Shown here: positions 39,273 to 63,846 of the stretch, one piece after another
Position numbering within the stretch: the first letter of the stretch is position 1
Layout: every line of letters begins with the position of its first letter
Virus record (IMG/VR): IMGVR_UViG_3300032018_000004
Coordinates: 16,975 to 80,974 of that record
Strand: one strand, 5' to 3'
DNA length: 64,000 nucleotides
From: a virus
Made by a program: the position numbers and the translations under genes
The notes under the pieces: generated by a model
Told to the model about the DNA's origin: nothing
What the model saw: the letters and a program-made list of their open reading frames with translations, nothing else
The model's database searches: none

Positions 39273-40391
39273 TTATCGAAATAATTCACTTTCTTTGTTA
39301 GAGGAACTATAAATGCCTCTATTGTGGATATTAATAGCGCCGTTTGACTTATCAACTACGCCACATGAAGAACAGGTTTGGCTTGTATATGCTGGATCAA
39401 CGGAGAGAAGATAGAAACCTTCTTCTTCAGACCGTAATGCCAGTTTAGCCAGAACCTGCTTGTAAGACCAATATTGAAGTCTGTTTTTAAATTTAGTATT
39501 TAGTTTCGATTTGTATTTTACATTCTTAAGGTCTTCAACCACTACGAGATTATACGACCCAAGGTCGATGTTGTTTACAATTTGGTTAGTGAGATTTTTC
39601 TTGTGGATTAGTAGCTGTTTATAGTTCTTAGAGCCTCGTTTTTTGTCGGCAAGTTTTGCATAAATCTGTTTTAATTCCTCACCATAGTGAAAGCCATTTG
39701 AATCAGAAATTAACTTATTATAGCCGCAATCCAACCCGATTGATTTGCCATGTTGTTTTACTTGTGCTTGTTCTTTCTCATAGAAAAATGTGACGTAGAA
39801 ATTTCCATTGATTTTAGATAATTGAATAGTATTTTTTCGAGTCCAATCTTTAAATTTCAAACTATTCTTGTGCTGTTTAATTGGGACATTAATTGTTTGG
39901 TATAGGCGCTTATCTTTCTTATACGGAGTAGTTATCCTAATAAATGAGTCAAATGAACTGCTTTCCTTAATGTTCCATAAATGATATCCTAAATTTATTG
40001 AAATAGTTTTTACGTCAATTTTAATACGTTTCAAATAATTAATGTTTAGTTCTGAATATTTCTTATTTAAAAACGATTGATGGATATCCTTTATCTTACA
40101 CTTGGTATAAAGTTTCTGATATCGCTTGAATGTTTTGTTTTTTGTGTATTTTAGATTTGAGCGGATTATTTCAGAAGCTGTTTTATAGGATAACTCTTTC
40201 CACGAACTATATTCAAAAACATCATTATGGAGATCTTTGCATGACATTAACTTCTTGAGTGGCAACTCGCCTTTGACGATGAGATCGATATACAAAATTA
40301 CACACTGCTTAAAGTCCTCATGAATCTTTTCGAGGAGGGCAAGTTTGCGTTTATTTGCGAATTTAAGAGTATGTTTAGATGATCTTATCAT
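39273..40391 (-). CDS. tnpB: TnpB/OrfB-family protein lacking RuvC-III and half of the zinc ribbon
   Basis: 372 aa. RuvC-I Asp221 (GLDCGYNK) and RuvC-II Glu286 (LVVVEDLKNV) are kept, as is the first zinc pair C340/C343 (SQTCSSCG). After KSN the sequence jumps to GAINIHNRG. The second Cys pair and the RuvC-III Asp, normally between them, are missing, as from an in-frame deletion of ~20-25 residues. The RNA-guided nuclease should thus be impaired or dead. No TnpA or clear transposon ends are seen. Driven by a sigma-28-like promoter at 40431-40458. Confidence 0.82.
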   Translation of the reverse strand: MIRSSKHTLKFANKRKLALLEKIHEDFKQCVILYIDLIVKGELPLKKLMSCKDLHNDVFEYSSWKELSYKTASEIIRSNLKYTKNKTFKRYQKLYTKCKIKDIHQSFLNKKYSELNINYLKRIKIDVKTISINLGYHLWNIKESSSFDSFIRITTPYKKDKRLYQTINVPIKQHKNSLKFKDWTRKNTIQLSKINGNFYVTFFYEKEQAQVKQHGKSIGLDCGYNKLISDSNGFHYGEELKQIYAKLADKKRGSKNYKQLLIHKKNLTNQIVNNIDLGSYNLVVVEDLKNVKYKSKLNTKFKNRLQYWSYKQVLAKLALRSEEEGFYLLSVDPAYTSQTCSSCGVVDKSNGAINIHNRGIYSSSNKESELFR

Positions 40392-41486: not shown

Positions 41487-41939
41487 ATGAATGAAATTCT
41501 TTTCCTACTAATTTTAGGCCATTTGTTTGGAGATTATTTGCTCCAGTCATATTGTCTTGCCGTCAATAAGAAGAAATATTCATTGATTGGTTGGAGTTCT
41601 GCAACTTATCATTGCCTTATTTATACCACTACAATTTATGGATTTTTATTAATTGAGGGAATTAAATTAAATTTCATTCAATGCCTCTTAATTTTCCTGT
41701 CACATTTTATCATTGACAAGTTTCCAGTTATTGAATACTATATGAAAGTGATGGATATTAGAAGTTGGGATAGAGAGCTTCCTAAAACAGGCAATGGTGT
41801 AGATTTTGAAAATAAAGAACCAATTACAATTATTCAATTAGTTACGACATCGTTTGGGTCGTTTGTTTATATTATGTGTGATAATACATTTCATTTATTC
41901 TTTATGTATTTAATTCTGAAATTCAGTATTGGAGTATAA
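41487..41939 (+). CDS. DUF3307 family membrane protein
   Basis: 150 aa. The N-terminal ILGHLFGDYLLQSYCLAVNK and the helix with LSHFIIDKF are the DUF3307 signature; 3-4 membrane helices. In phages this family is of unknown role, often next to nucleotide metabolism genes. Confidence 0.75.
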   Translation: MNEILFLLILGHLFGDYLLQSYCLAVNKKKYSLIGWSSATYHCLIYTTTIYGFLLIEGIKLNFIQCLLIFLSHFIIDKFPVIEYYMKVMDIRSWDRELPKTGNGVDFENKEPITIIQLVTTSFGSFVYIMCDNTFHLFFMYLILKFSIGV

Positions 41940-41940
41940 A

Positions 41941-42858
41941 ATGAAGGTAGTATATCCTGGCACATTTAACCCATTCACAATTGGACATAAATATGTTCTT
42001 GATCAGACGTGTCGTATGTTTGGTGGTGAAAATGTGACAATCTTATTGGCAGAGAATACAGAAAAAGATCAAGGATATTTTAAGTCCAGGAAAAGGCATA
42101 TTGTCCCGGTACACAATAATGTCGATTGTTATAAAGGTCTTACTACAGGTTATTGTTTTAAGAATGAAATAGAATTGATTGTTCGCGGGGTGAGAAATCA
42201 ATCGGATTTCCAGAATGAATACAATATGTCAAGTTGGAACAATGAACTATCAGATAATGATGTCAAGACTATTTTAATTCCATGCCCACCAAAATTGCAG
42301 AATATATCTAGCAGCGCCATTAGAACCTTATATGATTGCGATGTAGACGTTAAAAAATATTTCTGCAATGATTATTCATATCATAGGTGGACAGTCAAGG
42401 AACCTAAATACAAAATTTATTTTGGCAAGATGGCAGTTGGCAAATCTAGCTTATTGAGTGGGGAAAAATATGTAGATTTTGACAAATTCATTTATAGCCA
42501 ATTTTCTGTAGAGGAAGAGTCAAGATATAGGGAATTATTTTCTGATGCTATTAGAAAAAGAGATCATACTCAATATAATTTTGCAATTGATTCAATGTCT
42601 TTAAATATAGATAAAGTCAAATTATTCAAGGATGCTTTTAAAATTTCCAACACATTTGAAATATCGGCAATTGGGTCGTGGTTTGATGAAATTCCTATAG
42701 GAATCATAAGAGATGCAGAAATTATTAAGGTCGAATGTTCAGAAGAGGAACGGGTAAATAGGGCAATCAAAAGGGGCATAAGTATGGAAGATTTTGAAAA
42801 TTTTAATTCTTTTTATAAAGACCCACCATTTTGGGACAGGACAATAGTTAGTGAATAA
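41941..42858 (+). CDS. CoaD-like nucleotidyltransferase fused to a P-loop kinase-like domain
   Basis: 305 aa. Residues 1-~125 follow phosphopantetheine adenylyltransferase: YPGTFNPFTIGHK (T/HxGH motif), VRGVRNQSDFQNEYNM and ISSSAIRTL. Residues ~155-305 begin with FGKMAVGKSS, a Walker A, and resemble a small-molecule kinase such as dephospho-CoA kinase. The two-domain order matches bifunctional CoA synthase, but NadR-type NMN adenylyltransferase plus kinase is an alternative. ATG 41941 chosen over an earlier TTG. Confidence 0.72.
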   Translation: MKVVYPGTFNPFTIGHKYVLDQTCRMFGGENVTILLAENTEKDQGYFKSRKRHIVPVHNNVDCYKGLTTGYCFKNEIELIVRGVRNQSDFQNEYNMSSWNNELSDNDVKTILIPCPPKLQNISSSAIRTLYDCDVDVKKYFCNDYSYHRWTVKEPKYKIYFGKMAVGKSSLLSGEKYVDFDKFIYSQFSVEEESRYRELFSDAIRKRDHTQYNFAIDSMSLNIDKVKLFKDAFKISNTFEISAIGSWFDEIPIGIIRDAEIIKVECSEEERVNRAIKRGISMEDFENFNSFYKDPPFWDRTIVSE

Positions 42859-50601: not shown

Positions 50602-50823
50602 ATGTCAAATCCAGAAAGTGACAGGGGAAAACTAAAAACACTAGAAGGTAAGAACGCTAAAAATATTTATTCTGATGCAATTAGAGAGCTAAAAGATGCA
50701 ATGATATTTAGGCTTGAATACGCACAAATAACAGCAAAGATTCACAAAACTAAATTTGATGCCCTAGTAAAAGAAGGCTTCAGTGAATCCCAAGCACTTG
50801 AATTGTGCAAGAATATTGGTTGA
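50602..50823 (+). CDS. Hypothetical protein, 73 aa
   Basis: Ribosome site GAGGTGAGAA in the previous gene. Helical and basic; the FDALVKEGFSESQALELC end is a pattern of small phage proteins. Function unknown. Confidence 0.55.
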   Translation: MSNPESDRGKLKTLEGKNAKNIYSDAIRELKDAMIFRLEYAQITAKIHKTKFDALVKEGFSESQALELCKNIG

Positions 50824-50827
50824 CAAA

Positions 50828-52156
50828 ATGCACAACAAAATAATCAAAACGCTCTGTGATAATGGATACAATGCTCATATTGTAGGCGGGGCAGTCCGTG
50901 ATATTCTTTTGGGAGAAAACCCTAAAGATATCGATATCGTCACAAACGCCATTCCAGAACAAATCATTTCTCTATTCCCTGAGAATAAGATTGATCTGGT
51001 GGGGGCGAATTTTCAAGTTGTTATGATTGATGGCATTGAAGTAGCCACATATAGGTTTGATTGTTATGATGGGTTTAATCTAGCGGAAACGGTTGTAGCT
51101 TCTACAATCAATGAAGATTTGTCCCGTAGAGACTTGACGATCAATTCCCTTGCCATGTGTCCAGTCAGTGGGGACATTATCGATTTGTTCGGTGGAATTA
51201 ATGATCTGAAAAATAGAATTATCAAGTTCACGGGAAATCCTAATGACAGAATTAAGGAAGACCCGTGTAGGATTTTGAGGGCTTGTAGATTTCTTGCAAA
51301 GATTGATGGTGAACTTGATGAAGAAACAGAATTTGCTTTGTTAGAAAATCGCCATTTGGTTAAAAATATAGCTCCAGAAAGAATTAGAATAGAAATAATG
51401 AAGTTGATGAATTGTAAGAATCCTTCATTATTCTTTGAAATCGCTTCCGATATTGGCATTTTAGAATTAATTCTCCCCAATCTCGATTTTTGCCTTGGAT
51501 TTGACGGAGGTCCACACCATGAGGAATCGGTATTTCAGCATTGCATGATTGCCGGAGATTCCATTTCTAATAAATTCCCTTTATTGAAGCTTGCCGGATA
51601 TCTACATGATATTGGGAAATACCAATCATCTGCTTATGATGAAGAGGGGTTTATTACATTCCATGGGCATGAGAAGATTGGATCAGAAATTGTAGAGCAA
51701 GAATTAAAAGCATTAAAATTCAGTAATGATGAAATTGAATATATAAAGAATTTGGTTGAATTTCATATGCGAAGTCTAAAAGATATTTCGCCAAGATCAA
51801 TGAGGCGTTTAATCTCAAAGATGTATGAGAAAAATATAAGTCATAAAGATTTTCTTAGGTTGAAAATTGCTGACAGAAAGGCCAATCTGAAGAAGGAACC
51901 ATTTACTTTTCAAGAAATTAAGCATATGGTTAAATTGTTCCAGATTGAATTCAATGCAGAAATCCCTAATGCGTTTTCAATTAAGGACTTGACTATTGAT
52001 GGAAATGATGTTATTCAAATATTTGCGATAAAACAAGGACCGATTGTGGGAAATATTTTGAAAGATATTTTTGAAATGGTTCTTGATGATCCAGAATTGA
52101 ATGAAAGAGAAATGCTACTTGTGATAGTGGAGGGAAGAAAATGTCGAACATTGTAA
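50828..52156 (+). CDS. cca: tRNA nucleotidyltransferase (CCA-adding type) with HD domain
   Basis: 442 aa from ATG 50828. Class II head domain: HIVGGAVRDILLGENPKDIDIVT (GG and DxD), then RRDLTINSLA and the DRIKEDPCRILRACRF block. An HD phosphohydrolase domain follows (LLKLAGYLHDIGK, FHGHEKIGSE). It repairs or completes tRNA 3' ends with CCA; the HD part removes phosphates. It opens an RNA-repair set with the RlaP-like and RNA-ligase genes. Confidence 0.85.
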   Translation: MHNKIIKTLCDNGYNAHIVGGAVRDILLGENPKDIDIVTNAIPEQIISLFPENKIDLVGANFQVVMIDGIEVATYRFDCYDGFNLAETVVASTINEDLSRRDLTINSLAMCPVSGDIIDLFGGINDLKNRIIKFTGNPNDRIKEDPCRILRACRFLAKIDGELDEETEFALLENRHLVKNIAPERIRIEIMKLMNCKNPSLFFEIASDIGILELILPNLDFCLGFDGGPHHEESVFQHCMIAGDSISNKFPLLKLAGYLHDIGKYQSSAYDEEGFITFHGHEKIGSEIVEQELKALKFSNDEIEYIKNLVEFHMRSLKDISPRSMRRLISKMYEKNISHKDFLRLKIADRKANLKKEPFTFQEIKHMVKLFQIEFNAEIPNAFSIKDLTIDGNDVIQIFAIKQGPIVGNILKDIFEMVLDDPELNEREMLLVIVEGRKCRTL

Positions 52157-53031
52157 AAATGAAGAAAAAGAATCTAGTCAATCCCCCTGGTTTTGTTGTG
52201 GATGGCTTGCAATATGAAACCATTATGGGTAGTCAATCATATGGAGTCTCTAGTGACAATTCGGATGTGGATGTTTATGGATTCTGCATTCCACACAAAG
52301 ACATGGTTTTCCCGCACTTAAAGGGTGAAATTTTCGGATTCGGACAGCAAACACAGCGATTTGAACAATTCCAGCAGCATCACGTAAAAGACACAAGTTC
52401 TGGAAAAGAATACGATTTTTCTATTTATTCAATTGTAAAATATTTTCAATTATGCATGGAGAATAACCCCAACATGATTGATTCTCTCTTTACTCCAAGG
52501 GTATGTGTCACTCATTCAACTAGAATTGGGGAAATGGTTAGAGAGAATCGTAGGTCTTTTCTTCATAAAGGGTGTTGGCACAAGTTCAAAGGATACAGCT
52601 ACAGCCAGATGCATAAAATGAGGATTAAGAACCCAGAAGAGGGGAGCAAACGATACGAAAGTGTAAAGCAGCATGGGTATGATCTAAAATTCGCGTATCA
52701 TGTTGTTCGACTCCTTTCAGAAGTAGAAATGATTCTCGTTGAAGGTGATCTTGATTTAAGAAGAAACAGAGAACAGTTAAAAGCAATTAGGCGTGGTGAA
52801 TGGGAACTAGAAGAGATTGAAGAATATTTTAGCTCTAAGGAAAAATCTTTAGAGGAAATTTATTTATCTTCAACACTTCCATATAAGCCAAATGAAGAGG
52901 CAATTAAACAATTGCTTATTGATTGCCTGGAAGAACATTTTGGCTCATTGGGTGGATGTATTGTTGTTCAGAATCAAACTGAATTGATCTTAAACGATCT
53001 TCAAAATATTATTAATAAATTCAAATCTTGA
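52141..53031 (+). CDS. RlaP-like predicted nucleotidyltransferase
   Basis: 296 aa, overlapping the previous gene by 16 bases. GSQSYGVSSDNSDVDVYGF is the polymerase-beta-type nucleotidyltransferase motif (GS...D-x-D) of the RlaP/NrdC.11 family associated with RNA ligases. Acts presumably on RNA ends; substrate unknown. Sits immediately before an RNA ligase gene. Confidence 0.75.
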   Translation: MSNIVKMKKKNLVNPPGFVVDGLQYETIMGSQSYGVSSDNSDVDVYGFCIPHKDMVFPHLKGEIFGFGQQTQRFEQFQQHHVKDTSSGKEYDFSIYSIVKYFQLCMENNPNMIDSLFTPRVCVTHSTRIGEMVRENRRSFLHKGCWHKFKGYSYSQMHKMRIKNPEEGSKRYESVKQHGYDLKFAYHVVRLLSEVEMILVEGDLDLRRNREQLKAIRRGEWELEEIEEYFSSKEKSLEEIYLSSTLPYKPNEEAIKQLLIDCLEEHFGSLGGCIVVQNQTELILNDLQNIINKFKS

Positions 53032-53131
53032 CAATTCACACAACAATCAGCAGCCATTGCCCTTACAAAAATTAAGAATGTGATTTATTCAAATGAGTTT
53101 CAAAGCTACACTTGGGAGAGGAGGTAGAGTT

Positions 53132-54154
53132 ATGGAATTAATTAAATTTCCATCAATTGAACAATTCAGGAATGTTATCAAGAACGTCAAACATAAGACT
53201 CATTGGCAAGGAGTTGATGAGAATGGTGATGCCATCTTTGATCGCACTAGACCACTGCCTAAATTGAAATACCAGGGAGCCATTAAACTTCATGGGACTA
53301 ATGCTTCTATTGTGTTTGGAGAGAGCGTAGATGATGTCTATTTTCAATCGAGAGAAAGAATTATTACCCCACTGGATGACAATGCAGGATTTGCATTCTG
53401 GGCAGACAATAATAAAGAAATTTTAAACGATTTGTGCGGATCGGTTATTTCTACTTCTTACCTGTATAGAACTCCTACTATCCTCTATGGGGAGTGGTGT
53501 GGAGGGAACATCCAGAAAGGGGTTGCCATTAATGGCCTTTCTAAGATGTTTGTCATCTTCAAAATTAGAGCAGGGAATGATTGGCTTGACATGAGGGAAT
53601 ATTCTCATATCGAATCTCCAGAATATGGCATTTACAACATCCAAAACTTCAAAACATACGAATTGGAGATTGATTTCAATTGTCCACATGAAGTCCAAAA
53701 TGAGTTAATCAGAATCACCAAAGAGGTGGAAGAGAAATGCCCCGTTGGAGATCATTTCGGGAATATCGGGGTTGGGGAAGGTGTAGTATGGTCATGTGTT
53801 GACCCAGAGTGGAATGATAGTGCTTATACATTCAAGGTTAAGGGAGAAAAACATTCTGTTTCTAAAGTTAAGAAATTGGCATCTGTAGATATTGAGAAAG
53901 TGAATAGTATTAAAGAATTTGTGGATATGGTTGTCACAGAAAATAGACTAAATCAAGGACTTGCACATTTGAATGAAATGAAGTTGGATTTTGATGTGAC
54001 AAATACAGGTTCATTTTTGAAGTGGTTATATCAAGATGTGGTGAAAGAAGAGTCAGACACAATTTTCAAGTCTGGACTGGAGCCAAAAGAAATTGGTTCG
54101 GCTATTAGTGCTGCCGGAAAGAAGTGGTATTTTGAACAATTGAACGGGAGATAG
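53132..54154 (+). CDS. RNA ligase, Rnl2-like
   Basis: 340 aa; GGAGAGGAGGTAGAG before ATG 53132. Motif I IKLHGTNASIVF (Lys adenylated by ATP), then VYFQSRERIITP, the LYGEWCGG motif and a later VWSCVDPEW/FKVKGEKHS block complete the nucleotidyltransferase core. Reseals broken RNA such as tRNAs cut by host anticodon nucleases. Works with the preceding CCA and RlaP-like genes. Confidence 0.82.
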   Translation: MELIKFPSIEQFRNVIKNVKHKTHWQGVDENGDAIFDRTRPLPKLKYQGAIKLHGTNASIVFGESVDDVYFQSRERIITPLDDNAGFAFWADNNKEILNDLCGSVISTSYLYRTPTILYGEWCGGNIQKGVAINGLSKMFVIFKIRAGNDWLDMREYSHIESPEYGIYNIQNFKTYELEIDFNCPHEVQNELIRITKEVEEKCPVGDHFGNIGVGEGVVWSCVDPEWNDSAYTFKVKGEKHSVSKVKKLASVDIEKVNSIKEFVDMVVTENRLNQGLAHLNEMKLDFDVTNTGSFLKWLYQDVVKEESDTIFKSGLEPKEIGSAISAAGKKWYFEQLNGR

Positions 54155-56204: not shown

Positions 56205-57161
56205 ATGAAAAAGAAAATAGACACATATACGCACCTTCATGTCCATTCAACCCTGTCCTTGCTCGATGGTTATGGATTGCCAGATGATATTGCCAAAAGA
56301 GCGAGTGAAATTGGTTACTCACACTTGGCTTTGACAGATCACGCTACATCTTCGGGGCTTATTAAGTTCCAGAGGGCTTGCGATAAATATAATATTTCTC
56401 CCGTTCATGGGGTTGAATTTTATATTGTTCCAAATGCTGAGATAAAAGAAAAAGGAGAAAAAAGAGGGCATATCACGGCATGGGCTAAGAACGAGGTTGG
56501 GTATCAGAACATTTTAAAGATGCTAACTCTTGCCAATTTAAACTTTTTCTATCATAGGCCAAGAATAGACTTTAATACTCTCTTATCTCACGCGAATGGC
56601 TTGTGTATAGGAACAGCCTGCTCCGCGTCTTTCGTTCACCTAGAAGGAGGCATTGAGTTTTTTGGACAACTTAACAATAAAATCGGAGAAGATTTATATT
56701 GTGAATTGATGCCATTTGATTATGCTGAACAAATAAATACATCAAATATTGTTCTCGACTTATCTGAAAAATATGGTAGAAAGATTATCGGATCAAATGA
56801 CACACATTACATTTTTTCCGATGATGCTGAGACGCACGAGGTTTTGTTAGCGTGCCAGATTAAGAAAAAATGGGATGATTTGACGAGATGGAGGTTCAAC
56901 TGCGATGGATTATATCTTTGTGGGCCAGAATTTATGGTGGAGAGATTTAAAAAGCAAGGTGTTCTGACAGATTCAGAAATCTCTCAAGCAATGCTCACAA
57001 CTACGGAGATTGCAAAAAAATGCGAAGGCTTTAGGATTGAAAAGAAAGATGTCTCTCTCCCGATGCCTCCTCAGTATGCAGGAAGGGATGAGGAGGAAGT
57101 CTTCAAAGAAATGATTACTCTGGGGTTTAAAAAGAGATTTGGAGTAGATTTGTGCCTATAG
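56205..57161 (+). CDS. dnaE: DNA polymerase III alpha (DnaE-type), piece 1: PHP domain
   Basis: 318 aa. The first ~270 residues are the PHP domain of bacterial polymerase III alpha: HLHVHSTLSLLDG, LALTDHATSSG, HGVEFYIV and GSNDTHY. The frame stops (TAG) ten bases into a second frame that holds the polymerase palm. The continuation is piece 2 in the -1 frame. Piece boundaries fall between PHP and palm. Confidence 0.8.
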   Translation: MKKKIDTYTHLHVHSTLSLLDGYGLPDDIAKRASEIGYSHLALTDHATSSGLIKFQRACDKYNISPVHGVEFYIVPNAEIKEKGEKRGHITAWAKNEVGYQNILKMLTLANLNFFYHRPRIDFNTLLSHANGLCIGTACSASFVHLEGGIEFFGQLNNKIGEDLYCELMPFDYAEQINTSNIVLDLSEKYGRKIIGSNDTHYIFSDDAETHEVLLACQIKKKWDDLTRWRFNCDGLYLCGPEFMVERFKKQGVLTDSEISQAMLTTTEIAKKCEGFRIEKKDVSLPMPPQYAGRDEEEVFKEMITLGFKKRFGVDLCL

Positions 57162-57463
57162 ATATTGAAGAATACAAAAAACAAATTCAAGAAGAATTTG
57201 AACTAATTAAAGAAAAGGGTTTTATCAAATATTTTCTTATCGTGGCAGACCTGATTCAATGGGCCAAATCTGAAGGGATTCTAATAGGTTGTGGTCGTGG
57301 TTCGGTAACAGGAAGCACCATTGCTTATCTTTTGGGAATTACGGATATTGATGCTATAGTTCATAAAACAAACTTCTCTAGATTCCTAAATGCTGGAAGG
57401 GGAAAAGACTCCATGCCGGATATCGATATTGACGCGCCCGATAACAAAAGGGAAGATTTGTAG
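57152..57463 (+). CDS. dnaE: DNA polymerase III alpha, piece 2: palm with catalytic DxD
   Basis: 103 aa from GTG 57152, overlapping piece 1. GFIKYFLIVADLIQWAK, GCGRGSVTGSTIAYLLG and MPDIDIDAPD (the catalytic Asp pair) are clear. The frame ends at TAG (57461-57463), directly after KREDL. Sense reading resumes in the same frame with NRLKTLYG. Alignment to E. coli DnaE here needs no gap, so the TAG replaces exactly one residue. Confidence 0.8.
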   Translation: MPIDIEEYKKQIQEEFELIKEKGFIKYFLIVADLIQWAKSEGILIGCGRGSVTGSTIAYLLGITDIDAIVHKTNFSRFLNAGRGKDSMPDIDIDAPDNKREDL

Positions 57464-57469
57464 AATCGG

Positions 57470-59509
57470 TTGAAAACCTTATACGGCTCTAATTCAATTG
57501 CGCAACTTACGACTTTTCTAAAGATCGAAGAACGGACTGCCATTCGGGATGTTGCAAGAGTTTTTGATGTTCCTCTAAAAGAAGCCGATATGTTTTCTAA
57601 ACTTATTGGAGATGACGATATTGAAACAGCAATGGAGAAGGCAGAAGGAAGAATCTTTGCAGATAGATATCCTCATGTAATCAAACACGCCCTTAAATTA
57701 AGGGGGCAATACAGAAGTCTAGGTCGCCATGCAGCAGCACAAATTATTTCAAGTGAAGATTTGACACTTGGGACGAGAGCATCATTGGCGGATAGGAACG
57801 GAGCTGTTGCAGTTTCTTTAGACATGGAAGATGCGGAGTACGCAGGGCTTTTGAAGCTGGATTTACTTTCTCTCTCGAACCTCACAGTAATAGCGGACTG
57901 CTTAGAATTAATAAAACAAAATCATGGGAAAAGTATTGATCTTGTAAATATTGATTTAACTAATAAAAAGATATTCAAGGAATTGAGTCTTTCGAATACT
58001 GTTGGTATTTTTCAGTTTAATACATATGCAATGTCTCGGCTTTCTAAAGAAATGGGAATAGACAGCTTTAGTGATATGGTAGCGGCTTTAGCCCTTGTCC
58101 GTCCTGGACCTATGGACTCTGGAATGACAGCACAATACATTCAAAGAAAGAAGACGAAAACATGGGACAAAAAGCATGATGTGTTCGAGTCCATAACCGA
58201 AGACACCTACGGTATCAATATTTTCCAGGAACAGGTTCTTGAAATTTTTGTTCAAATTGCGGGATTAGAACCGCAAGTGGCTGATAAGATTAGAAAAGTT
58301 ATCGGGAAAAAGCGCGATGCTGCCGAATTCGAACCTTACCGAATCCAGTTTATTGAGGGGTGTAAAAAAGTTGGATATTTTTCTGAAAAGGAAGCGGATA
58401 ATTTCTGGAGGGAACTCCAAGCATACGCTCGATATGGCTTCTCCAAGAATCACGCAGTTGCATATGCAAAGATAGCTTACGATTGTTGTTTTCTTCGTGA
58501 GTATTATTCTAGCGAATTTCTTTGTTCATGTTTGACATATGGTTCTGAAGGAGAAAAGGCCAAGTTATTGGCCGAGGCTCAACGCCTCGGCCTCTCCATC
58601 CTCCCCCCGAAAATCGCAACTTCCCATCCTACAAAGTGGGAGGCGCGAGACGGGATTTTAAGCATTCCGTTCATTGAAATTAAAGGACTTGGACAACGCT
58701 CAGTAGAAACTATAGCACAATACCAACAATCCCTTCAACCCGGATTCTTCACCTCCGAGGCTCCAGTGATTAAAGGGAAATTAAAAACTATTCTGGATAA
58801 CATCGGAGCTTTCACAGAAGAGGTGCCGGATACAATAGATGACTACTTCCCAGATTTAGGAATTTCTCTAAAGCCTAAAAGCAAATACAAAAAGCTATAT
58901 GAGCTGGTTGGAGAGAACACAAAATGGGATTCCAGCAAGCTACTGACTGGTGATTTCATTGGAGGACATTTTGGAAGGGAGATTAGCAAATCCAATCCCA
59001 TCCCTAAACTTTTCTCATGTACAAATTGTGATTTGAGAAATACGAACGAAATTCCTGTGATTCCAATTGTGGGAAAATACAACATAGCAATTGTAAATGA
59101 AGCGCCACATTGGGATCAGAAACCGGAGAAGTTTTTATTCAAAGAGCTTCAAAAATATGGGTTTGAGAAAAGTGATTTTTATTATACAAATTTAATGAAA
59201 TGTGCTTGCAAGAAACCATCTATTGAGAATATTAAAACTTGCGGAGAATGGCTGAAGCAAGAAATAAAAGAGAAAAAGATATTTTTGATCTTGACACAGG
59301 GCAGTAGTAATGTTACACTATTCTCTAATGACGATCAAGGTGTCATGAGGAAGAATGGAAGTTGTGAATGGAATGAAGAGTATGGATGTTGGGTTGTGTA
59401 TTCCATTGGGGCGAATTTGGCCTTGTGGAAACCTGAAATGAAATCTAAATTTGAAGAAAGCATTAAATTATTTGTTCAGAAATGTGAGCAATTGGGAGGG
59501 TTGGTGTGA
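57470..59509 (+). CDS. dnaE: DNA polymerase III alpha, piece 3: fingers, HhH and UDG-like C-terminal domain
   Basis: 679 aa from TTG, in frame with piece 2 beyond the amber codon. Contains AIRDVARVF, LALVRPGPMDSG, RKVIGKKRDA and YARYGFSKNHAVAYA (palm/fingers) and a helix-hairpin-helix IKGLGQRSVETI. From residue ~500 it carries an added domain: CTNCDLR, IAIVNEAPHWD, TNLMKCACKKPS and ILTQGSSNV. This resembles family-4/5 uracil-DNA glycosylases with an iron-sulfur Cys pattern. OB and tau-binding parts of cellular DnaE are missing. Confidence 0.8.
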   Translation: MKTLYGSNSIAQLTTFLKIEERTAIRDVARVFDVPLKEADMFSKLIGDDDIETAMEKAEGRIFADRYPHVIKHALKLRGQYRSLGRHAAAQIISSEDLTLGTRASLADRNGAVAVSLDMEDAEYAGLLKLDLLSLSNLTVIADCLELIKQNHGKSIDLVNIDLTNKKIFKELSLSNTVGIFQFNTYAMSRLSKEMGIDSFSDMVAALALVRPGPMDSGMTAQYIQRKKTKTWDKKHDVFESITEDTYGINIFQEQVLEIFVQIAGLEPQVADKIRKVIGKKRDAAEFEPYRIQFIEGCKKVGYFSEKEADNFWRELQAYARYGFSKNHAVAYAKIAYDCCFLREYYSSEFLCSCLTYGSEGEKAKLLAEAQRLGLSILPPKIATSHPTKWEARDGILSIPFIEIKGLGQRSVETIAQYQQSLQPGFFTSEAPVIKGKLKTILDNIGAFTEEVPDTIDDYFPDLGISLKPKSKYKKLYELVGENTKWDSSKLLTGDFIGGHFGREISKSNPIPKLFSCTNCDLRNTNEIPVIPIVGKYNIAIVNEAPHWDQKPEKFLFKELQKYGFEKSDFYYTNLMKCACKKPSIENIKTCGEWLKQEIKEKKIFLILTQGSSNVTLFSNDDQGVMRKNGSCEWNEEYGCWVVYSIGANLALWKPEMKSKFEESIKLFVQKCEQLGGLV

Positions 59510-59998: not shown

Positions 59999-60199
59999 AT
60001 GATTAAAACAGATAAAACAGAAGACCTTATTTTAGACTGCGTAAAAGGGCTGAAATTAGAAGGTCTATCACTACAAGAAAATCAGTCCAAGAGGGTGCTC
60101 CAGATAGAATCTCTGAGCAGCCTTCACTTCCAGTATGAAACTAATCCAGAATCGACATGTTCAATCAATCCTGTCTCAGCCGGAATATTCAGGTCATGA
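59999..60199 (+). CDS. Doubtful small protein, 66 aa
   Basis: GGATCGGTAGAAAG before ATG 59999. It overlaps the ligase fragment by 65 bases in another frame, and neither frame contains the missing ligase motif I. May be the leftover of a rearranged ligase 5' end. Confidence 0.25.
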   Translation: MIKTDKTEDLILDCVKGLKLEGLSLQENQSKRVLQIESLSSLHFQYETNPESTCSINPVSAGIFRS

Positions 60200-60887
60200 T
60201 GGAGAAATTATTGTCGGAGAGCCAAATGATCTAAATGCCTTTGCCAATACAACTGGCGCAGTTCGTAGATTTGATGGAGAACCGAATTTCAAGTATTATG
60301 TATTTGACAAATGGGATATTAAATCTCCATATTCTGAAAGACTTGAACAGTTAAAAAGCCACGGAGTTATGGAAGTTATAAAGCAAGAAACCTTATATTC
60401 CCCAGAAGATGTTATCCAATATACAAATTGGTGTACAGAACAGGGGTATGAAGGAGCAATGATCCGTTCAATGGATGGGGCGTATAAAGAAGGAAGATGC
60501 ACACCCAGAGAATTGAATATCTTTAAGCGAAAACCCGTAGCCGATGATGAATGTGAAATCTTATCCTTTGAACAGCAATTCGAAAACCAAAATGATTCAT
60601 TCACAAATGAATTGGGGAATAGTACCAGATCATCCCATAAAGAGAATATGGTTGGTAAAGGAACACTTGGAGTGTTCATTGTCAAATCCAAGAAGTGGAA
60701 TGATGTATTCAAGATTGGCACAGGTGAAGGGCTGACAGAAGAATTGAGAAGTGAAATTTGGAACAACAAAGAGAAATATCTAGGGAAAATTATCACATAT
60801 AAATACCAGGAATATGGTTCAATAAATGCGCCAAGGCAACCAATCATGAAGGGATTCAGAGAAAAATCTGATCTTACTAATTATTGA
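60135..60887 (+). CDS. ATP-dependent DNA ligase, N-terminally truncated
   Basis: 250 aa. Begins in the middle of a T7-like ligase: KLIQNRHVQSIL, then motif III GHDGEIIV, motif IV YEGAMIRS, motif V FKRKP and the OB-fold end KIITYKYQEYG. The N-terminal ~40-50 residues with the adenylated Lys (motif I, KxDG) are absent, and no upstream frame supplies them. Ribosome site is poor. Without motif I it cannot form the ligase-adenylate, so it is a pseudogene or needs a partner. Confidence 0.65.
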   Translation: MKLIQNRHVQSILSQPEYSGHDGEIIVGEPNDLNAFANTTGAVRRFDGEPNFKYYVFDKWDIKSPYSERLEQLKSHGVMEVIKQETLYSPEDVIQYTNWCTEQGYEGAMIRSMDGAYKEGRCTPRELNIFKRKPVADDECEILSFEQQFENQNDSFTNELGNSTRSSHKENMVGKGTLGVFIVKSKKWNDVFKIGTGEGLTEELRSEIWNNKEKYLGKIITYKYQEYGSINAPRQPIMKGFREKSDLTNY

Positions 60888-60916
60888 TTGACAAGCGATT
60901 AAATAGTTATTATAAA
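60888..60916 (+). promoter_or_regulatory. Sigma-70-type promoter
   Basis: TTGACA, 17 bases, TATAAA, at the end of the ligase gene. Drives the PRPP-synthetase / macrodomain / NAMPT operon. Confidence 0.75.
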
Positions 60917-60947
60917 GGATAGAAGATAAATAATTTAGGAGGTTGAT

Positions 60948-61709
60948 GTGATTAAATTAAATAATAGAGAGGTATATTTCGGAGAGTTTCCAAACAAGGA
61001 AATGAATCTTCCACTAGAAGCCCTTGAAATTAAAGAAAACAATTCAATATTCATGGCATACGAAGATGATTCCGATTTCATGAAACTCGCCATGTTGAAA
61101 GGCGCTATAGATGACTTCTCAGGGGAAGCATCTCTGTATCTAACATACATGCCATATTCAAGGATGGATAGGCCAAACGGCCATTATTCGGTTAGTTTGA
61201 AAGCAGCTTGCAACCTTATTAACGCAATGAATTTTATCACGGTAGAGGTGAGAGAGCCACATTCACAAGTGACATTAGACCTACTCAACAATTCATTTCC
61301 AGATAATTGGTCTTATGCCATGATGGAGCGAGTTATTGGGGAAGGAAATTTTGAATCAATTTTCTTTCCAGACATGGGAGCGAAGACAAGATACAATTAT
61401 CTTGGAAAATTGCCAACTGCATATGGGAAGAAGGGGCGAGATTTCCTAACAGGTAAAATTACTGGACTCGCCGTTTCTGGAGAAGTGTCAGAGAATGTTC
61501 TAATTGTGGATGATTTGTGCAGCCGGGGAGGAACATTTGTAGAAGCAGCCAAAATTTTAAGAGGAAAAGGGGCAAAGAGAATTGGGTTATTGGTTGCATA
61601 TTGTGAACACAATGTTTATAATGGAGAAATATTTGATCATGTAGACATGATCTATACAAGCAGCGAAAACAATTTGAAATATCATCCACGAATCACTAAA
61701 TTAAACTAA
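60948..61709 (+). CDS. PRPP synthetase-like (ribose-phosphate diphosphokinase family) protein
   Basis: 253 aa from GTG with AGGAGGTTGAT. LYLTYMPYSRMDRPN and the PRPP-loop LIVDDLCSRGGTF identify the ribose-phosphate diphosphokinase / phosphoribosyl fold. It either makes PRPP or, as in phage NAD+ reconstitution pathway 1, pyrophosphorylates ADP-ribose. Shorter than cellular Prs (~315 aa). First gene of an operon with a macrodomain and a NAMPT-like enzyme. Confidence 0.82.
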   Translation: MIKLNNREVYFGEFPNKEMNLPLEALEIKENNSIFMAYEDDSDFMKLAMLKGAIDDFSGEASLYLTYMPYSRMDRPNGHYSVSLKAACNLINAMNFITVEVREPHSQVTLDLLNNSFPDNWSYAMMERVIGEGNFESIFFPDMGAKTRYNYLGKLPTAYGKKGRDFLTGKITGLAVSGEVSENVLIVDDLCSRGGTFVEAAKILRGKGAKRIGLLVAYCEHNVYNGEIFDHVDMIYTSSENNLKYHPRITKLN

Positions 61710-61718
61710 GGCATAATT

Positions 61719-62183
61719 ATGAAAACGATAAATGGGGATTTAGTCCAGTTGGCGTTGGCTGGAGAGTTTGATGTTATTATTCACGGGTGTAACTGCCTCT
61801 GCACTATGGGTTCTGGAATAGCAAAAACGATCAGAGAGTATTTCCCAAAAGCGTATGAGATAGATCAGGAAACAATTAAGGGAGATAAAAATAAATTAGG
61901 GAAATACTCCTGCATTAAGATTGAAAGAAATGACTTAAAATATTTACATATCGTAAATGCCTATACTCAATACAAGTACGCGAACCGCAATATTCAAAAT
62001 GCAGATTATGATGCAATTAGAAGCGTTATGAAGAAAATTAAAGAAGATTTTACAGGGCTGAGAATTGGGTATCCTAAAATTGGCGCTGGATTAGCTGGCG
62101 GTGATTGGAATATTATTTCTAAAATTATAGATGAAGAATTAGACGGCGAAAACCACACTTTGGTAATTTTCAACAAAATTTAA
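61719..62183 (+). CDS. Macrodomain (ADP-ribose-1''-phosphatase-like) protein
   Basis: 154 aa. GDLVQLALAG, HGCNCLCTMGSGIAK and YPKIGAGLAGGDW are the ADP-ribose-binding loops of Poa1p/TARG1-type macrodomains. Such proteins bind or dephosphorylate ADP-ribose derivatives. Its place between a PRPP-synthetase-like and a NAMPT-like gene suggests ADP-ribose handling in NAD+ metabolism. Confidence 0.85.
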   Translation: MKTINGDLVQLALAGEFDVIIHGCNCLCTMGSGIAKTIREYFPKAYEIDQETIKGDKNKLGKYSCIKIERNDLKYLHIVNAYTQYKYANRNIQNADYDAIRSVMKKIKEDFTGLRIGYPKIGAGLAGGDWNIISKIIDEELDGENHTLVIFNKI

Positions 62184-62192
62184 GGAGAAAAA

Positions 62193-63650
62193 ATGACAAC
62201 CCCAGCAACCCTACTTTGTGACTTTTACAAGATTTCTCATCGTGAGCAGTACCCAGAAGGCACGGAAATTGTTTATTCAACTTGGACTCCACGGGCTAAT
62301 AAGCATCACCCCACATCTGATAAAGTAGTTGTTTTTGGTATCCAGGCGTTTGTTAAGAAGTATCTGATTAAGTATTTTGACGATAATTTCTTTTCTCGGC
62401 CACTTGAAGATGTGATTGCTGAATATGAACGCATTATTAAATTTGCGCTTGGTGTGGCAATTCCGTACACTAAGCATATTGAAGAACTTCATGAGTTAGG
62501 ATATCTGCCGTTGAAGCTACGGGCATTGCCAGAAGGGTCTACCGTCCCATTGCGTGTTCCGATGATGACGATTGAGAATACAGATTCACGTTTCTTTTGG
62601 TTGACTAATTTTGTAGAAACTCTATTGTCTGCTGAACTGTGGCAACCGTCCACTTCTGCGACAATAGCAAAAGAATATCGTGATTTGCTTGATGCGTATG
62701 CTGAAGAGACTGGCGATCCTGGTTTTGTTCAGTTCCAAGGGCATGATTTCTCCATGCGTGGAATGGGTTGTGTAGAATCTGCTGCATCTAGTGGGGCAGG
62801 ACACTTGCTATCGTTTGTCGGCACTGATACAATTCCGGCAATTTGTCACCTTGAAGAATACTACAATGCGAATGTTGAAAACGAAATTGTAGGTACAAGT
62901 ATTCCGGCGACTGAACATTCTGTGATGTGTGCTGGGAGTAAGGATGGAGAGTTTGCTACATACAAGCGCCTGATCACAGAAGTATATCCCAGTGGCTTTG
63001 TAAGTATTGTTTCTGATACTTGGGATTTGTGGTCTTGCATTGGCAATATTATCAAACCGATGAAGAATGAAATTATGGCAAGGGATGGACGTGTTGTTAT
63101 CCGTCCAGATAGTGGTGATCCAGTTAAAATTATCTGTGGCGATCCGCTATCGAGCAACCCAATGGCGAATAAAGGTTTGATTGAATGCCTCTGGGATATT
63201 TTTGGTGGGACTGTTAATGATAAAGGATTTAAAGTCATTGATTTTCATATAGGTGCAATCTATGGTGATTCTATTACACTGGACAGGTGCAAGAGGATTT
63301 GTGAAGGGTTAAAAAATAAAGGGTTCTCATCCACCAATATGGTTTATGGTATCGGGAGTTATACCTATCAGCACAATACTAGAGACTCATTTGGCTTTGC
63401 CTTGAAATCTACCATGTGTGTGATTGACGGTAAGCAAAAAAATATCTACAAAAATCCAGCTACAGATGATGGGACGAAGAAATCCAACACCGGCGTAGTG
63501 GCCGTTCAGGATTGTCAGGGCGAATTAATCTGTGTTGATGGGCTACTCATTAAACATTTTGTAGATGATCTAATGCGCGATGTATTTGTAGATGGTGAAC
63601 TTATGGTTGATGATACCCTTGCTAAAATTAGAGCGAGGTTGGCAAACTAA
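62193..63650 (+). CDS. Nicotinamide phosphoribosyltransferase (NAMPT-like)
   Basis: 485 aa; AAGGAGAAAAA before the ATG. DFYKISHREQYP, the FQGHDFSMRGM block, SIPATEHSVM, and VIRPDSGDP match NAMPT family type II phosphoribosyltransferases throughout. It joins nicotinamide to PRPP (or to ADP-ribose pyrophosphate in phage pathway 1). Full length. With the two upstream genes it forms an NAD+ restoration operon; a CoaD/NadR-like adenylyltransferase also lies at 41941. Confidence 0.9.
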   Translation: MTTPATLLCDFYKISHREQYPEGTEIVYSTWTPRANKHHPTSDKVVVFGIQAFVKKYLIKYFDDNFFSRPLEDVIAEYERIIKFALGVAIPYTKHIEELHELGYLPLKLRALPEGSTVPLRVPMMTIENTDSRFFWLTNFVETLLSAELWQPSTSATIAKEYRDLLDAYAEETGDPGFVQFQGHDFSMRGMGCVESAASSGAGHLLSFVGTDTIPAICHLEEYYNANVENEIVGTSIPATEHSVMCAGSKDGEFATYKRLITEVYPSGFVSIVSDTWDLWSCIGNIIKPMKNEIMARDGRVVIRPDSGDPVKIICGDPLSSNPMANKGLIECLWDIFGGTVNDKGFKVIDFHIGAIYGDSITLDRCKRICEGLKNKGFSSTNMVYGIGSYTYQHNTRDSFGFALKSTMCVIDGKQKNIYKNPATDDGTKKSNTGVVAVQDCQGELICVDGLLIKHFVDDLMRDVFVDGELMVDDTLAKIRARLAN

Positions 63651-63651
63651 G

Positions 63652-63846
63652 ATGAAATTTGAATTGACAGAAGGACAGTTGGAGAAGTTCAAAGAATGGG
63701 ATAGCACCCATGATTGCGATGGCGCTGCTGGCGCAATAGGAGGAAAGGTTGGCTTTAAATTCATTCCAACGGGGCTAGGAATGATATTTCAAGCGGAATG
63801 TATTTGTGGAGAAAAACTGCAATTGACAGAATCGGAGAATTGGTGA
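63652..63846 (+). CDS. Hypothetical protein, 64 aa
   Basis: ATG 63652 one base after the NAMPT stop. Alternating strands with a HDCDGAAGAIGG segment and CICGEKL. Function unknown, but it follows the NAD+ genes in one transcript. Confidence 0.5.
   Translation: MKFELTEGQLEKFKEWDSTHDCDGAAGAIGGKVGFKFIPTGLGMIFQAECICGEKLQLTESENW

Follow-up and report, generated by a model that had tools for sequence, protein, structure and literature searches.

Near the end of a 64-kb stretch of viral DNA, a Prs-like gene and a NAMPT-like gene on the same strand flank a single gene for a macrodomain protein, and the two outer genes very probably encode a genuine Adps/Namat pair, the enzymes of nicotinamide adenine dinucleotide (NAD+) reconstitution pathway 1 (NARP1). 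In that pathway, Adps (ADP-ribose pyrophosphate synthetase) forms ADPR-PP from ADP-ribose and ATP, and Namat (nicotinamide ADP-ribose transferase) converts ADPR-PP to NAD+, so that NAD+ destroyed by bacterial defences is rebuilt. The stretch (hereafter the window) makes up the final 64 kb of an IMG/VR virus record of 80,974 bases (IMGVR_UViG_3300032018_000004; G000:C1:16975-80974), and its end is the end of the contig. The best explanation overall for the locus, with roughly an even chance of being correct, is a three-gene NARP1 anti-defence module, with predicted enzyme activities, a putative macrodomain substrate and a presumed benefit during infection. In such a module the macrodomain would widen the intake of NARP1 by hydrolysing 1''-linked ADP-ribose derivatives to free ADP-ribose for Adps. 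Candidate substrates are ADP-ribose-1''-phosphate, which could arise from RES-type NAD+ phosphorylases or from RNA 2'-phosphate removal, and O-acyl-ADP-ribose; ADP-ribosyl groups on macromolecules are perhaps a further one.

The operon consists of three intact open reading frames (ORFs) that run in one direction from 60948 to 63650, with both intergenic gaps measuring 9 bases. The Prs-like gene begins with GTG and has AGGAGG upstream, and GGAG-like or AAGG-like sequences precede the gene starts of the operon. A first-pass annotation of this DNA had described a macrodomain flanked by a Prs-family and a NAMPT-family enzyme; that gene order holds, and the link between macrodomains and NARP1 recurs in many phages (see below), while the macrodomain functions it had offered, clearance of ADP-ribose-1''-phosphate or capture of signal molecules, keep only the tentative standing that we give them here.

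The Prs-like protein matched PHROG 619 (3.7e-59); its match to PF00156 lay slightly above the cut-off and that to TIGR01251 below it. It contains the signatures YMPYSRMDR (residues 67-75), PHS, FFPD-GA, RDF-TG and DDLCSRGGTF. In a tree of 136 rows it fell, together with both assayed Adps enzymes (those of phage SPbetaL1 and Paenibacillus foliorum), within a 50-row clade with a Shimodaira-Hasegawa-like approximate likelihood ratio test (SH-aLRT) support of 99; its rows include L171 and L115 (L numbers are our handles for compared loci). Prs of E. coli and other true Prs proteins lay on a separate branch (support 100, length 2.51). The window protein is 40-42% identical to the Adps of SPbetaL1 and P. 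foliorum, and 53% identical to that of locus L002.

The NAMPT-like protein carries PF04095 and PF18127, matched PHROG 448 (1.3e-196) and is 61.8% identical to SPbetaL1 Namat; it scored 705 bits against the structures of that enzyme (9w5x/9w5w) and 210 bits against human NAMPT. Namat differs from NAMPT in its adenine clamp, which is formed by a helix of consensus GSX-Phi-X-Phi-X-Phi-TRD with aromatic residues at positions 3 and 7, and by a loop containing either Arg, or Lys or Tyr followed by a stacking residue (PMC12774641). The clamp helix of the window protein, GSYTYQHNTRD (residues 388-398), fits this consensus, with Tyr at position 3 and His, rather than Tyr or Phe, at position 7 (a His is also found there in the Adps-linked L063, L066 and L125). 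In the clamp loop, K37-H38 lies at the R40 position and fits the rule of Lys plus a stacking residue. The catalytic residues F186, R189, D212, H242, R304 and D306 correspond to F189, R192, D215, the catalytic His, R306 and D308 of SPbetaL1 Namat; among the NAD+-contacting positions checked, A362 is replaced by Ser360 and Y396 by His394.

An aromatic clamp residue was present in 152 of 177 Namat/NAMPT homologues. The 25 without one were chiefly NadV proteins of Pasteurellaceae (including the H. ducreyi locus), whose loci lack a neighbouring Prs-like gene, and phage NAMPTs, whose loci carry a true Prs wherever a Prs-like gene is present. Within the Namat-like set, the aromatic is missing from L079, L130 and L135, and the fragment L065 is a further exception; a few such fragments and odd cases aside, loci with the aromatic clamp residue have an Adps-type partner in this sample. 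The Namat tree by itself did not split Pasteurellaceae NadV cleanly from Namat, and at that point the distinction therefore relies on the clamp motif together with the Adps partner. These NadV proteins (L135-L170) lay on the Namat side of a quick tree, but without clamp aromatics or a nearby Adps; they possibly represent a Namat ancestor that has gone back to the use of phosphoribosyl pyrophosphate (PRPP).

Because the Adps tree, the Namat clamp motif and the catalytic residues all group the pair with the assayed Adps and Namat enzymes, we place it away from ordinary Prs and NAMPT. The first-pass proposal of a NARP1-type pair was thus borne out, and the clustering with ordinary Prs and NAMPT named there as the contrary outcome was not observed by phylogeny or by motif. 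Salvage of PRPP and nicotinamide mononucleotide (NMN) by a conventional Prs and NAMPT would agree with the folds of the two proteins and with the PRPP activity that Namat itself retains in vitro (PMC12774641), but was rejected on the basis of the Prs tree placement and the clamp motif: the Prs-like protein is a member of the Adps clade, and the clamp aromatics are absent from NadV/NAMPT. No NMN adenylyltransferase was recognised among the contig ORFs scanned (a part of the total); the one HIGH-type nucleotidyltransferase among them matches phosphopantetheine adenylyltransferase. We consider such salvage very improbable.

The macrodomain protein matched PF01661 (Macro; 5.8e-8, 33.1 bits against a cut-off of 22) and PHROG 335 (1.5e-53), and its AlphaFold2 model, built on an alignment confined to the window protein and rows from viral contigs, has the macro fold with a predicted local distance difference test score (pLDDT) of 93.9. 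The nearest structures in a Foldseek search of the model were TARG1, DarG, BT1257 and Poa1p, at about 18-24% identity. The ADP-ribose loop is retained, and H22, N25 and T29 align with H23, N26 and S30 of yeast Poa1p, an ADP-ribose-1''-phosphatase of the same fold (18-21% identity by structural alignment), the Thr being a conservative replacement; the fourth active-site residue of Poa1p, F152, is replaced by A126. In a motif alignment made by eye, R39 stands at the position of the catalytic lysine of TARG1 and DarG (K84 and K80, respectively) and A126 at that of TARG1 D125; many relatives of the window macrodomain have Lys at position 39. Taken together, these residues weakly favour hydrolysis at the 1'' position over the mechanism of TARG1 and DarG. 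Removal of the 2'-phosphate from tRNA leaves ADP-ribose phosphate, which Poa1p hydrolyses to ADP-ribose (PMC8883491). We tentatively regard the window protein, the only macrodomain found in the contig, as an intake-widening hydrolase of presumed substrate, a reading to which we give somewhat less than an even chance.

The same comparisons bear on a different role, in which the macrodomain would strip off the ADP-ribose that host toxins (DarT-like or CmdT-like) attach to DNA, RNA or protein, independently of any feeding of Adps, and would stand beside NARP1 because both answer ADP-ribose-based defences. The proximity of the model to TARG1 and DarG and the weak matches to the NCBIfam and PADLOC DarG profiles agree with such a role, and the occurrence of related macrodomains next to PRPP-type NAMPT genes (described below) fits a general defence function that would explain both settings. 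The Arg and Ala at the TARG1/DarG catalytic positions argue against it, as do the absence of the DarG C-terminal domain and a score of 36.9 bits for the DarG profile NF048014, well below its cut-off of 250. On balance we find this role rather doubtful.

The association of macrodomains with NARP1 was examined in viral loci fetched by Namat similarity alone, which numbered 80, or 66 once near-copies had been removed; 64 of the 66 contained an Adps-like gene. The scans were ranked by likeness to the window, and the counts describe relatives of the window operon rather than all phages. The 64 distinct viral NARP1 loci contained 11 macrodomains, eight of which lay between the two enzymes or no more than 250 bases from the unit; were placement uniform, the chance of this would be 7% for each macrodomain (binomial p about 1e-7). 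When neighbouring genes were grouped by similarity, macrodomains were the commonest add-on beside the pair (18 loci, in a set that included some loci chosen via their macrodomains). The order Adps-macrodomain-Namat was found in the window and in L012, L028, L078, L088-L090, L215, L224, L225, L229, L235 and L239, and a macrodomain 3' of Namat in L008, L029, L033, L037, L057 and Acinetobacter phage P1. Macrodomain loci were collected by profile scan; scans for near relatives of the macrodomain or Adps protein gave few loci. In the macrodomain tree, the NARP1-adjacent label must have been gained or lost at least 10 times across well-supported branches. A Poa1p-like clade (support 100/99), most members of which are of NSGLFNVPW type, stands apart from the GAGLAGGDW type of the window. 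We therefore conclude that the association arose repeatedly, by recruitment of macrodomains from at least two subfamilies.

A sister operon, L002 (53% identity in Adps and 70% in Namat), polarises the insertion in the window. Its gene order is DNA ligase, Adps, Namat and a further gene that is 58% identical over 50 residues to the gene following the window operon, with no macrodomain. Since L002 keeps this flanking order, the macrodomain and the 64-residue ORF that follows Namat are most simply explained as insertions in the lineage of the window. The small ORF had no match in the phage collection and weak matches in L211 and L196; it is possibly on the operon transcript.

Several other genes accompany such pairs. 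A protein of ~140 residues with DDT and DDR motifs was the second commonest add-on, present in 13 viral loci either between Adps and Namat or next to them (between them in L005, L013, L025, L027, L059 and L061, among others); by eye it has the look of a HAD-type phosphatase, and the two members scanned gave no Pfam match. NADAR domains are encoded 3' of Namat in L015 (7473-7958) and L034 (7672-8217), and Nuc_deoxyri_tr2 proteins between Adps and Namat in L026 (5331-5795) and L005 (5559-5975); these are possible further ADP-ribose-type add-ons to NARP1 operons. A search for NADAR domains in the contig of the window found none. Separately, six phage regions (L211, L231, L234, L241, L243 and L266) combine a true Prs, a PRPP-type NAMPT and a macrodomain, and are the canonical-salvage counterpart of the macrodomain-NARP1 pairing.

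The closest described systems are NARP1 of Bacillus phage SPbetaL1 and of Paenibacillus foliorum and NrsAB of ICP1, which share with the window the same two enzymes, their order, their clades, the catalytic residues and the adenine clamp. SPbetaL1 NARP1 comprises two genes with no intervening macrodomain, whereas a macrodomain gene is inserted in the window. Pseudomonas phage Adele combines NARP1 with a Poa1p-like macrodomain protein, PaAdele_020, in which Ser30 is replaced by Thr as in the window (T29); its gene lies downstream of NARP1 and, by gene number, is not directly adjacent to it (PMC12846349). The Adele authors proposed that this protein releases ADP-ribose for NARP1, and noted that known substrates of such a protein had not been found in bacteria (PMC12846349). 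That objection is removed by work on RES-domain toxins of bacteria, of which NatT of P. aeruginosa has been shown to produce ADP-ribose-1''-phosphate (PMC11535050; see also PMC8883491). The NARP1 operon of mycobacteriophage DyoEdafos likewise has an inserted enzyme for an ADP-ribose derivative, RyDEP, a RyR-domain glycosidase for 2'/3' cyclic ADP-ribose (cADPR) with a fold unrelated to the macrodomain; RyDEP frees ADP-ribose from cADPR isomers, and its coupling to Adps and Namat has been reconstituted in vitro (PMC13232231). A search of the contig for RyR domains returned no match, but it also failed to detect them in its control genomes, and this negative does not establish absence.

Prs-like, NAMPT-like and macrodomain genes also stand together, in orders that differ from that of the window, in Rheinheimera phage Barba19A (gp033-035) and Acinetobacter phage vB_AbaM_P1 (genes 144-147), and as in the window in the IMG/VR contigs L088-L090. 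The macrodomains of L088 and L174 are distantly like that of the window (35-47%), and a 12-kb stretch of the window had no near-identical match among the phage records. The same gene sets had thus already been deposited (Barba19A gp033-035 and Acinetobacter saclayviruses), and the feeding idea had been published as speculation for Adele; what is new here is a count of how often the pairing recurs, the evidence for several macrodomain subfamilies, the use of L002 to polarise the insertion, and a catalogue of further add-ons.

Two further roles for the macrodomain were weighed. As a sponge, it would bind cyclic ADP-ribose signals or the ADP-ribose of Thoeris-type systems. The macro fold with its retained ADP-ribose loop is suited to this; phage sponges of such signals have been described (PMC12043709), as have binding-only forms among RyR-domain homologues (PMC13232231). 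The protein nonetheless retains His, Asn and Thr of catalytic type, for which a pure sponge would have no use, and sequestration of ADP-ribose would compete with Adps; we judge this role improbable. In RNA repair, the macrodomain would clear the ADP-ribose phosphate left by a 2'-phosphotransferase, its place beside NARP1 being incidental. The contig does contain an RNA-repair cassette at 50783-54154 (a CCA-adding enzyme, an RlaP-family nucleotidyltransferase or polymerase, and an RNA ligase), and in vB_AbaM_P1 an RNA ligase gene lies directly upstream of the Prs-like gene. The cassette is, however, ~6.8 kb from the operon, no KptA/Tpt1 2'-phosphotransferase was found in the contig (a possibly incomplete record), and incidental placement is unlikely given that eight of 11 macrodomains are adjacent. 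We consider this role quite improbable.

Several observations weigh against the feeding of Adps by the macrodomain within a NARP1 module. The clamp residue at the Y396 position of Namat is His394; the macrodomain has A126 at the position of Poa1p F152, and R39 at that of the TARG1/DarG lysine. RES toxins have not been tied to phage defence (PMC11535050). In the macrodomain tree, the subclade of the window protein is mostly located away from NARP1, and the same family occurs 3 bases from PRPP-type NAMPT genes in L211, which carries a true Prs, and in L237, in which no Prs-like gene was seen. The link of the macrodomain may therefore be with NAD salvage in general and not with the feeding of Adps.

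The coordinates of the operon and its immediate flanks are collected in Table 1.

Table 1. The operon and adjoining features; positions count from the first base of the window
Feature	Position	Strand	Basis
Adps candidate, Prs-like, 253 residues	60948-61709	+	PHROG 619, tree clade
Macrodomain protein, 154 residues	61719-62183	+	PF01661, PHROG 335, predicted structure
Namat candidate, NAMPT-like, 485 residues	62193-63650	+	PF04095/PF18127, PHROG 448, motif table
64-residue ORF directly 3' of Namat	63652-63846	+	ORF list; start 1 base past the Namat stop
Possible sigma-70-like promoter ahead of the operon, TTGACA-17-TATAAA	60888-60916	+	Read from the letters; weak

The strong sigma-70-type promoter proposed in the first-pass annotation did not hold up at that strength. 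A TTGACA (60888-60893) and a TATAAA (60911-60916, a -10 element without its final T) are present with a 17-base spacer, but the promoter scanner does not report this site, and the 22 promoter-like sites in its scan are near the chance expectation from shuffled sequences (16.4, standard deviation 3.9).

Elsewhere in the window, the DNA ligase ORF upstream of the operon (60135-60887) lacks the N-terminal catalytic part and is preceded by a short ORF in another frame; the gene, spanning 59999-60887, may be decayed, split or frameshifted. Three consecutive ORFs at 56205-59509, overlapping or nearly abutting, read by eye as one DNA polymerase III alpha-like protein, the division reflecting frameshifts, a split gene or assembly errors. 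The protein encoded at 41929-42858 joins a phosphopantetheine-adenylyltransferase-like domain to a P-loop region (GKMAVGKSS) at the C terminus and by eye looks like a CoaD-CoaE fusion in a phage. A transposase-like ORF (PHROG 12300/506) lies on the minus strand at 39276-40391, inside a plus-strand region, and head genes of the contig, such as that for the maturation protease, are on the minus strand.

A broader reading is that NARP1 operons have an accessory slot that has been loaded repeatedly with enzymes freeing ADP-ribose from blocked forms, the macrodomain of the window serving NAD+ recovery after phosphorolysis to ADP-ribose-1''-phosphate. We think this doubtful as a whole; if it were true, a part in phage defence would follow for RES-type NAD+ phosphorylases. 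That macrodomains were gained repeatedly and independently suggests that their pairing with NARP1 has been selected for. If the macrodomain does feed Adps, NARP1 would not be confined to NADases whose product is plain ADP-ribose, the derivatives of ADP-ribose formed by host defences could be read from its add-on genes, and the role of RES-type toxins against phages would become a testable question.

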